From positions 1-64,000 of the forward strand of contig DATKXK010000016.1 in NCBI GenBank assembly GCA_035529075.1: a DNA stretch of 64,000 nt, read 5' to 3'. Position 1 is the first letter of the stretch. Each line of letters starts with the position of its first letter. Of the stretch, positions 38,293 through 41,500 are shown piece by piece. Under the pieces are notes generated by a model, which did no database searches, had not been told where the DNA came from, and saw only the letters and a program-made list of their open reading frames with translations. The translations under genes were made by a program, and so were the position numbers. The DNA is from Acidobacteriota bacterium (GTDB taxonomy: Bacteria > Zixibacteria > MSB-5A5 > GN15 > FEB-12).

Positions 38293-38626
38293 AACGAAAA
38301 CAGCCCCGGTGAGAATACGTGGTGCCCACCCAGAAAGACGCAGGACGACACTTGTCCGTCAAACGGGAAATCGATATGGAATCACATTTTTCTTGCGACT
38401 GTCAGAAACTGTCAGTGAACGTTCAACTGCCGTGTGTGGGGATGTGTTAGTACATTCGTTGTGTCGTGCGGCGGGTGCGCTGATGCTGCACGTGCAGCTT
38501 GTGTGAACGCTCTTCTCCGGCTGTAACGTCCAGGTCGGTTATGTCAACGGTCGGCAGATAAAACAGAGGAGGCGGAACCCCAGGGGGGTCCCGCCTCCGG
38601 CAAGCTCATATCGAAGCTTCTCGGTA
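38293..38626. promoter_or_regulatory. Upstream region of the lipoprotein gene with repeats and palindromes
   Basis: No gene. It contains a direct repeat ACTGTCAG at 38398-38405 and 38408-38415 (10-bp period), the palindrome GAACGTTC (38417-38424) and a perfect 14-bp palindrome GCTGCACGTGCAGC (38485-38498). These look like binding sites for a regulator of the leftward lipoprotein gene. The terminator of the RRM gene occupies the right end. Confidence 0.4.
38557..38598 (-). terminator. Rho-independent terminator of the RRM gene
   Basis: A 14-bp stem (38585-38598 with 38568-38581, one G-T pair) and a three-base loop. On the minus strand it is followed by TCTGTTTTATC. It lies 28 bases after the stop codon. 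Confidence 0.88.
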
Positions 38627-38893
38627 CTAGTACCTTTGATAACCCCGATCCGCCTTGTCCTTCGGCGGCCGCGCCTCGTCGACCTTGATGGTGCGCCCGG
38701 TGAACACGGACCCGTTGAGTTCCTCTTTCGCCTTGGTGGCCTCGCCGGCGTCGGACATTTCGACAAAGCCGAAGCCTTTGCCCTCGATAATGTTGACGTC
38801 GCGGACCTGACCGTAATTGGCGAACAGTTCGGTCAACTGCTCACTGGTGACGGAATAGCTGAGGTTACCTACGTACAGTCTGTTACCTGCCAC
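38627..38893 (-). CDS. Small RRM RNA-binding protein
   Basis: 88 residues, a single RNA-recognition motif. RNP2 is LYVGNL (6-11) and RNP1 is KGFGFVEM (39-46), with the aromatic residues that stack on RNA; a short basic tail follows. Similar proteins in cyanobacteria and other bacteria are cold-induced RNA chaperones. The GTG start at 38893 has GGAGG six bases upstream, but the leader contains an inverted copy of this region that would hide it. Autoregulation or cold regulation is therefore likely (inference). Confidence 0.93.
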   Translation of the reverse strand: MAGNRLYVGNLSYSVTSEQLTELFANYGQVRDVNIIEGKGFGFVEMSDAGEATKAKEELNGSVFTGRTIKVDEARPPKDKADRGYQRY

Positions 38894-38959
38894 TTCTACC
38901 TCCGAAAACTGTTAATCCACGTCCAACAATGCTTCTGTCAGAGGTAGAAGCAGGGTAAC
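38882..38959 (-). promoter_or_regulatory. Leader RNA structure sequestering the RRM ribosome binding site
   Basis: GTTACC (38882-38887) and CTTCTACCTC (38893-38902) are matched by GAGGTAGAAG (38941-38950) and GGTAAC (38954-38959). In the mRNA the 10-bp stem covers the GGAGG site and the first base of the GTG; the 6-bp stem covers codons 3-5. An alternative stem, GCTTCT/AGAAGC (38931-38936 with 38946-38951), uses the same upstream strand and would free the site. The two folds exclude each other. Confidence 0.7.
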
Positions 38960-39023
38960 GATTCTAACCTCTCTACGGAAAACATCATCAAACACTGCTG
39001 CCCCGGCACGGGGCCTGTATACC

Positions 39024-39051
39024 AGTAAACTACTTTCCGGGAGATTGTCAA
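39024..39051 (-). promoter_or_regulatory. Predicted promoter of the RRM gene
   Basis: On the minus strand a consensus TTGACA (39051-39046), 16-bp spacer, TTTACT (39029-39024). The leader would be about 125 bases and includes CCCCG-TGC-CGGGG and the switch structure. Confidence 0.5.
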
Positions 39052-39250: not shown

Positions 39251-41500
39251 ATGTATACCAAGCAACAAGCCCTCGATTATCACTCGGTGGGGAAGCCGGG
39301 CAAGGTGGAAGTATGTCCCACCAAGCCTTGTGTTACCCAGCTTGACCTTTCCCTGGCGTACACCCCCGGCGTAGCCGTGCCCTGCCTGGAGATACAGAAG
39401 AACCCGGCTGAGATCTACAAGTACACGGCCAAGGGCAACCTTGTGGCGGTGATCAGCAACGGGACGGCGGTGCTCGGACTGGGCAATATCGGAGCCGCTG
39501 CGGGCAAGCCGGTGATGGAGGGCAAGGGGGTGTTGTTCAAGCGCTTTGCCGATATCGACGTGTTCGACATCGAGTTGGACACCCTGGATCCCGACGAGGT
39601 TATCAGGTGCTCCCAGCTTTTGGAGCCCACGTTCGGCGGGATCAACCTGGAGGACATCAAGGCGCCGGAGTGTTTCTATATCGAAGAAACGCTGAAGCGG
39701 ACAATGAAGATTCCGGTCTTCCATGATGACCAGCACGGCACGGCGATCATTTCGGGTGCGGCTCTCATGAACGCCATGGAGCTGGTCGGGAAGGAAATGA
39801 GCAAGGTGCGGGTGGTGTTCTCGGGTGCTGGGGCGGCCGGGATCGCGTGCGCCAAGCTGTACTGCGCTCTCGGGGTCAAGCATGAGAATCTCGTCATGGT
39901 TGATTCCAAGGGCGTGATGTACGAAGGGCGCGGCGATGAGTACAACAAGTACAAGACGGAGTTCGTTCGCAAGACGGATCTGCGCACGCTGGCGGACGCC
40001 CTGGTGGACGCCGACGTGTTTGTCGGTGTTTCGACCAAGGACGTGGTTTCGAAACAGATGGTCAAGACCATGGCCAAGGATCCGGTTATCTTCGCCATGG
40101 CCAATCCCGACCCGGAGATAACGTATCCCGACGCCGTGGAGGCGCGATCCGACGTTATTATGGCTACCGGCCGTTCGGATTATCCCAATCAGGTCAACAA
40201 CGTGCTGGGGTTCCCGTTTATTTTCCGCGGGGCGCTGGACGTGCACGCCACCGCGATCAACGAGGAGATGAAGATTGCTGCGGCCAGGGCTCTGTCAAGC
40301 CTGGCCAAGCAGGACGTGCCCGAAGAGGTCGCCAAGGCTTACGGCGGAGAGCACTTCAGGTTCGGCCGGGATTACATCATTCCCAAGCCGTTTGACCACC
40401 GTGTCCTTATCTGGGAGGCCTCGGCGGTGGCGCAGGCAGCCATGGAGACGGGCGTGGCGCAGCGTCCTGTCGACATCGAAGAGTACCGGCAGCAGCTGGA
40501 GACACGGATCGGCAAGGGCCGGGTTTTCATGAACGTCATCGCCGACAAGGCAAAGAAGGAACCGCGAACGATCGTCTTCCCGGAGGGCAACTCGAGCCGC
40601 ATCCTGCGAGCCGCGCACGTCGTCCTGGAGCATGGGATCGGCCAGCCGATAGTGCTCGGCAACCTGGAAGAGGTGCAGCGGGCGGCGAAGGAGCACGAGA
40701 TCGAACTGGACGGCATCAAGGTTGTCGATCCGGTCACGTCACCCAAGCGGCAGGAGTACGCGCAGAAGTACTACGAGAAGCGTTGCCGCAGGGGGGTCAC
40801 GCTTGACCAGGCGACCTGGAAGATGCGCGACCGCACCTATTTCGGCATAATGATGCTGGAGATGGGGGACTGCGACGCCGTGCTTTCGGGCGTGACTTCG
40901 GATTACGCGGCCACGGTTCGCCCGGCGCTGGAGATTATCGACCTGCAGGAGGGCGTGACCCGGGTTTCCGGGCTGTTCGCGATGGTGCAGAGGGACAAGC
41001 TCTACCTGTTCGCCGACACCACCGTGAATATCGACCCGACTCCCGAGGAACTGGCCGAAATCGCGATCTGCTCGGCGCGGGTGGCCCGCGGGTTCAACAT
41101 GGAGCCGCGCATAGCCATGCTCTCGTTCAGCAATTTCGGTTCGGCCAAGTACCCCGAGTCGATCAAGGTGGCGAAGGCGACCGAGATCGTGAAAAAGAGG
41201 CAGCCGGACCTGGTCGTCGAGGGTGAGATGCAGGCCGATACGGCCCTGATGCCGGAGTATATGCAGCGGCACTACCCGTTCTCCAAGCTGACAGAAGCGG
41301 CCAATGTCCTTATCTTCCCGGACCTCAACTCGGGCAACATAGCGTACAAGCTGGCGCTTCGCATGGGTGGGCTTCAGGCAATCGGCCCGATCCTGATGGG
41401 CCTTTCCAAGCCGGTGCACGTGTTGCACCGCACCCTGGACGTCAACGAGATCGTCGACATGGCGGCAATCGCAGTGGTGGCCGCCCAGCAGAAGAAGTGA
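39251..41500 (+). CDS. maeB: NADP-dependent malic enzyme with phosphotransacetylase-like domain
   Basis: 749 residues, the MaeB hybrid type. It decarboxylates malate to pyruvate, making NADPH. The malic domain (1-400) has [30 protein letters not shown] (157-165, metal site) and the NAD(P) loop GAGAAG (192-197). From about 435 a PTA-like domain follows ([48 protein letters not shown]), regulatory in known homologues, where acetyl-CoA inhibits. A clean AGGAG site and its own promoter are present. Confidence 0.95.

Follow-up and report, generated by a model that had tools for sequence, protein, structure and literature searches.

A conserved hairpin motif with start-region antisense in the leader of an RRM protein gene, a probable translational switch

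Many bacteria encode RRM proteins of the eukaryote-like type. To our knowledge, little is known about how they are controlled. The 64,000-nucleotide stretch of DNA analysed here (the window) carries one such gene, whose leader contains a sequence complementary to the gene's own translation start region. A sequence-only reading of the window had proposed that the mRNA can form two mutually exclusive leader folds, one of which covers the Shine-Dalgarno (SD) site. To find out whether this is a conserved arrangement, and what might drive it, we compared the leader with those of orthologous RRM genes, 60-76% identical to the query, in related genomes. A Zixibacteria MAG was the closest named relative found for the genome that holds the window. 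The gene product matched Pfam RRM_1 with E=2.2e-20. It also scored 82.5 bits with NCBIfam Rbp_regulator, under that model's cut-off of 100.

Complementarity between leader and start region in the window

All six sequence blocks from which the two folds had been drawn were found at their positions when the letters were checked (Table 1). The buried start region held up with its 16 pairs, between 38941-38959 and 38882-38902, but GTTACC corresponds to codons 3-4 and not, as claimed, to codons 3-5. Codon 2 also pairs through CUGC/GCAG, which extends the helix, interrupted by a small bulge, to about 20 pairs. The complement of the start region (c) lies 40-60 nt upstream in the leader, and its partner (c') comprises the SD, the GTG and codons 2-4.

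The fold of 38975-38860 on the minus strand had an energy of -41.5 kcal/mol (z = -3.9), which was equalled by only one of 200 dinucleotide shuffles. Genes from 400 kb of the same genome plus the window were used as background. The longest Watson-Crick run between leader and start region was 10 for the RRM gene and at most 9 for the 210 other genes, and the best two-block chain was 16 versus at most 12. Among 229 start regions of the genome, the best partner of the leader segment was its own (-33.7 kcal/mol); the others gave a mean of -16.4 and a best of -30.2 kcal/mol. When whole-duplex energy with loops allowed was calculated, 9 of the 210 background genes were as strong as the RRM gene. This measure was too unspecific for a genome-wide test, and contiguous complementarity was used instead.

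The promoter-like site TTGACA-16-TTTACT would place the transcription start upstream of 38995, probably near 39017, and not downstream of 38941, which the sequence-only reading had named as an objection to itself. An exact TTGACA was present within 110 nt upstream of the conserved leader motif described below in 12 of 24 leaders, compared with 3% of window stretches. In these leaders the -10-like hexamers were mostly spaced by 16-18 nt and lay 16-28 nt ahead of the motif. The terminator-like hairpin with its T-run 3' of the gene suggests a single-gene transcript. The divergent neighbour (39251-41500, plus strand), about 200 nt from the promoter-like site, encodes a malic enzyme with a fused phosphate acetyltransferase domain. 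A GC-rich hairpin, GCCCCGUGCCGGGGC (38998-39013, minus strand), stands immediately upstream of P1 in the window and was not observed in orthologous leaders.

Table 1. Positions of the RRM gene, its leader elements and the complementary blocks in the window
Feature	Position	Strand	Details
RRM protein gene, 88 aa, GTG start	38627..38893	-	Pfam RRM_1 E=2.2e-20
GTG start codon of RRM gene	38893-38891	-	
Shine-Dalgarno GGAGG, 5 nt ahead of GTG	38899..38903	-	from sequence
c', translation start region (SD, GTG, codons 2-4)	38882..38902	-	pairs with c in the closed fold
c, start-region antisense GUUACCCUGCUUCUACCUC	38941..38959	-	P2 loop plus P2 3' strand
Whole leader motif, ~77 nt (models R1, R2)	38919..38995	-	67.5 bits with R1, 75.9 bits with R2
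P1 helix, 5' strand	38980..38993	-	covariation in alignments A1/A2
P1 helix, 3' strand	38921..38934	-	covariation in alignments A1/A2
P2 helix, 5' strand b, AGAGGUUAGAA	38962..38972	-	SD-region-like
P2 helix, 3' strand UUCUACCUCU	38940..38949	-	common to P2 and c
Conserved competitor, P1 and P2	38993-38980 with 38934-38921; 38972-38962 with 38949-38940	-	
Promoter-like TTGACA-16-TTTACT	39024..39051	-	putative; -35 hexamer 39051-39046, -10 hexamer 39029-39024
Terminator-like hairpin and T-run, 3' of RRM gene	38568..38598	-	
Block GTTACC	38882-38887	+	as quoted; mRNA on minus strand
Block CTTCTACCTC	38893-38902	+	as quoted
Block GAGGTAGAAG	38941-38950		
Block GGTAAC	38954-38959		
Blocks GCTTCT and AGAAGC	38931-38936 and 38946-38951		

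A conserved P1/P2 motif ahead of RRM genes

Comparison of the orthologous leaders revealed a motif in which a 14-pair basal helix, P1, encloses a hairpin, P2. The P1 consensus, GUUUAAUAAUGUUUUC with GAAACAUUAUUGGAC, was present in most orthologous leaders, and the P2 consensus was GAGAGGUnAGAA with UUCUACCUC. The competitor of the SD-covering helix was thus not the one first suggested: the letters of the stem GCTTCT/AGAAGC are real, but what is conserved is P1 together with P2.

Both strands had changed with pairing kept at 16 of the 24 pairs in an alignment of 16 leaders, and at 17 of 24 in an alignment of 24 leaders. On the 24 leaders, 79.5% of cells were paired (P1 86.7%, P2 71.2%), compared with 38-52% after sliding, and none of 500 shuffles matched any measure. 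RNAalifold predicted P1 unaided. Covariance-model scores were far higher on the sense strand than on the antisense strand, which scored far lower or not at all. Because P1 of the window is rich in G-U pairs, the signal is that of the RNA of the sense strand. A DNA operator was considered for the P1 dyad and is disfavoured by the many G-U pairs, which an operator does not need, and by the sense-strand scores. Transcription attenuation was set aside, as no terminator-like site was present within the leader. No Rfam family matched the leader at the gathering threshold or up to E=1, and no earlier description of the motif was found in the open-access literature. The covariation and the fixed position before one gene make a solid comparative case for regarding the P1/P2 motif as a cis-acting structured RNA.

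The motif occurred ahead of the same kind of RRM gene in about 29 species. Of 132 genomes from this phylum, 24 carried a covariance-model match ahead of an RRM orthologue. Model R1 gave 18 matches in 17 of these 132 genomes and recovered four leaders outside its training set (L047, L049, L051 and L056), all just before the RRM start. With model R2 and a limit of E<=0.05, there were 26 matches, spread over 24 genomes; six of the leaders were new (L089-L092, L095 and L096), all ahead of RRM orthologues. In total, ten leaders were recovered from outside the model that found them, each 25-45 nt before an RRM orthologue. R1 members were also found in two other phylum-level groups, in 3 of 6 and 2 of 39 genomes (through L039 and L038, respectively). 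None of the inspected matches stood before a non-RRM gene. By these computations, the motif and its association with the RRM gene are established.

With two exceptions, the motif occurred once per genome: in one genome it is present in tandem, and another (G119) has two loci, each before an RRM gene. The tandem copies precede a single RRM gene in G074 (L063, C1:1318888-1318966, and L060, C1:1318606-1318680). They are about 280 nt apart, the upstream one follows its own TTGACA, and the arrangement resembles a tandem switch. In G066 and G063 (L012 and L014), two tandem RRM genes, 64-67% identical to the query, lie about 600 nt apart, and only the downstream gene is preceded by the motif.

Start-region antisense and SD mimic across leaders

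Across leaders, the P2 loop and its 3' strand had the consensus GCUAUCUUGCUUCUACCUCC. The start region had the consensus GGAGGUUAGAAUGCAAGGUAGC, with the reverse complement GCUACCUUGCAUUCUAACCUCC; by inspection, GCUAUCUUGCUUCUACCUCC and GCUACCUUGCAUUCUAACCUCC are one substitution and a few bulged bases apart. The P2 5' strand, GAGAGGUUAGAAUCG, resembles the start region itself, with 9-11 identical nucleotides in L049, L051 and L068. Strand b and c' therefore compete for c.

On 14 leaders, c:c' had 79.6% of cells paired, compared with 38-50% after sliding. When it was treated as a fixed-register helix on the same leaders, covariation was no higher than in shuffles, because the sequences are conserved. 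Of 29 leaders taken one by one, 19 had more complementarity than their dinucleotide shuffles (p<0.05), with a combined Fisher p=5e-21 over leaders that are not independent of each other. In these 19 the complementarity is kept, and its absence among relatives, which the sequence-only reading had set as its own refutation, was not observed. About one third of the leaders, including L008, L009, L011, L015, L019, L020 and L023, did no better than shuffles. Cognate pairs were better than permuted pairs from the SD to the AUG (p=2e-5), whereas their advantage over nearest-relative pairs was not significant (Wilcoxon p 0.06-0.37), which indicates that ancestry accounts for part of the c:c' signal. 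Strong cases were L089 (about 24 pairs), L056 (11 pairs) and L025 (12 pairs from SD to AUG). In L091, the GGAGG of the SD and the CCUCC of its complement were lost together. In two thirds of the leaders the complementarity does not stop at the SD but runs well beyond it, through the spacer and into codons 2-5. Computation across the leaders establishes that complementarity of c to the start region is conserved.

Two folds can be drawn from these elements. In the open fold, P1 would close P2, and c would be held by strand b, which mimics the SD region, leaving the SD free. In the closed fold, P1/P2 would open and c would pair with the SD, the start codon and the first codons, blocking ribosome binding. 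Since c:c' encloses the P1 3' strand and crosses P1, the nested folds are mutually exclusive unless a pseudoknot forms. Two exclusive folds, one covering the SD, had been predicted from the window, and as computed P1/P2 and c:c' structures they recur in related genomes. Our results suggest that the leader is probably a conserved cis-acting translational switch, a judgement on the switch and not on its trigger. That switching occurs and controls translation we infer from the modelled folds.

Trigger, competing explanations and known systems

For the trigger, temperature is our first choice, although a tentative one: by analogy with the cspA leader, low temperature would favour the open fold. 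Partition functions were calculated for 29 leaders with either P1 or c:start pairing forbidden. With falling temperature, the open fold gained on the closed fold in 25 of 29 leaders; it was favoured in 20 of 29 at 10 °C and in 14 of 29 at 50 °C, values among which those of L066-L068, whose P1 strands were slightly trimmed, should not be read individually. For the window leader, the models preferred the closed fold at every temperature between 10 and 50 °C, by 5-8 kcal/mol, unlike what a simple equilibrium thermometer would show. The shift is weak evidence, because low temperature almost by default favours a fold with more pairs, and because the window leader is predicted to stay closed throughout. 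Taken together, the energy models lend mild support to a cold-on thermosensor. In leaders of the window type, the closed fold is predicted to be the more stable at all temperatures. A cold trigger would there depend either on P1/P2, the first part to be transcribed, being kinetically trapped during transcription, or on a bound factor that opens the leader; for such a factor, the RRM protein would be the obvious candidate.

In E. coli cspA mRNA, the leader and early coding region adopt one of two structures, which exclude each other and are not equally accessible to the ribosome; the protein product also acts on its own mRNA (PMC9947658). As in our computed model, the mRNA of an RNA-binding protein has two exclusive folds, one with an accessible start region. 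The cspA thermoregulator differs in that it belongs to a cold-shock-domain gene, while the gene here encodes an RRM_1 protein. Unlike cspA, the RRM leader has as its alternative structure a short hairpin domain that carries both an explicit start-region antisense and an SD mimic, and the Rfam cspA thermoregulator gave no match to it at gathering or up to E=1. ROSE and fourU thermometers also pair the SD with a leader strand. They are opened by heat, whereas the models here point to cold opening and the SD partner is UUCUACCUC, not UUUU; their Rfam family models did not match the RRM leader.

A cold link has also been described for cyanobacterial rbp genes. PMC9333190 mentions conserved boxes in the rbpA1/rbp1 5' UTRs and a role of single-RRM proteins in the cold, and a paper by Sato and Nakamura (1998; cited in PMC6091082) connects, by its title, the 5' UTR of a cyanobacterial RRM gene with cold regulation. 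The computed gain of the open fold in the cold agrees with this role. The likeness to the RRM leader lies in conserved 5' UTR elements before single-RRM genes with a cold link; the phylum is a distant one. We know of no related structure or start-region antisense for the cyanobacterial rbp boxes.

Feedback without a direct role of temperature is a possible though less probable explanation. The RRM protein would bind its own leader, at b or the similar SD region, shift the RNA to the closed fold and limit its own synthesis. The motif stands ahead of a single kind of gene, as autoregulation would predict, the start region is mimicked by strand b, and opening of the window leader would require some factor. 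There is a precedent in Bacteroides: CLIP-seq placed a site bound by the RRM protein RbpB within the rbpB mRNA itself, 'implying the potential for autoregulation' (PMC11697453). Against feedback, the open fold has no strictly conserved short unpaired sequence.

It is rather unlikely that P1/P2 serves another purpose, such as mRNA stability or an RNase or ribosomal-protein site, with the SD complementarity a by-product of GAGG/CCUC in P2. P1/P2 is indeed far better supported than c:c', and a third of the leaders have no convincing c:c'. However, P2 alone does not require complementarity that reaches the spacer and codons 2-5, as it does in two thirds of leaders, nor the specificity of the window c for its own start region among 229.

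Translational riboswitches and autoregulatory ribosomal-protein leaders keep an anti-SD bound in an upstream domain in one state and let it pair with the SD in the other. The RRM leader would likewise hold an anti-SD in one state and cover the SD with it in the other, and its 5' domain shares a strand with the SD-covering helix, which is the layout of a translational riboswitch. It differs in having a single target gene and no identified conserved ligand pocket or known protein site. A metabolite riboswitch, with P1/P2 as aptamer and c:c' as expression platform, is very improbable: the invariant or nearly invariant columns lie mostly in helices or are explained by c:c', leaving no conserved unpaired pocket, the associated gene encodes one RNA-binding protein and no metabolic genes are involved, and Rfam gave no match up to E=1. 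A functionless chance inverted repeat is scarcely credible, and the comparative data already refute it for P1/P2. In its favour, inverted repeats of short length occur often and 9 of 210 genes equal the whole-duplex energy, but the z-score of -3.9, the lack of an equal among 210 genes by contiguous pairing, the blind recovery in independent genomes and the covariation all speak against it.

Returning to the switch, we give about even weight to its representing an undescribed family in several uncultured phyla: a hairpin with a start-region antisense and a decoy copy, dedicated to one RRM protein and responding to cold and/or that protein. A compact, conserved and computationally well-defined switch before one RRM gene would provide a testable handle on RRM control in phyla without cultured models. 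Self-antisense with an SD decoy would add a leader design for cold-shock and autoregulatory mRNAs, and the covariance model can be used for annotating new genomes.

A different conserved leader was observed before paralogous RRM genes, including L002, L004 and L005 of the window's own genome (G000) and L032-L035; Rfam gave no match to it. It lies about 120 nt before the start codon (alignment A4) and contains a near-invariant GCGC(A/G)AU..GCGC hairpin and a helix of GGUUUAUCU with GGGAUAAAC. In a further hairpin, GUAGA-AUGAACA-UCUAC, the start codon is placed in the loop.
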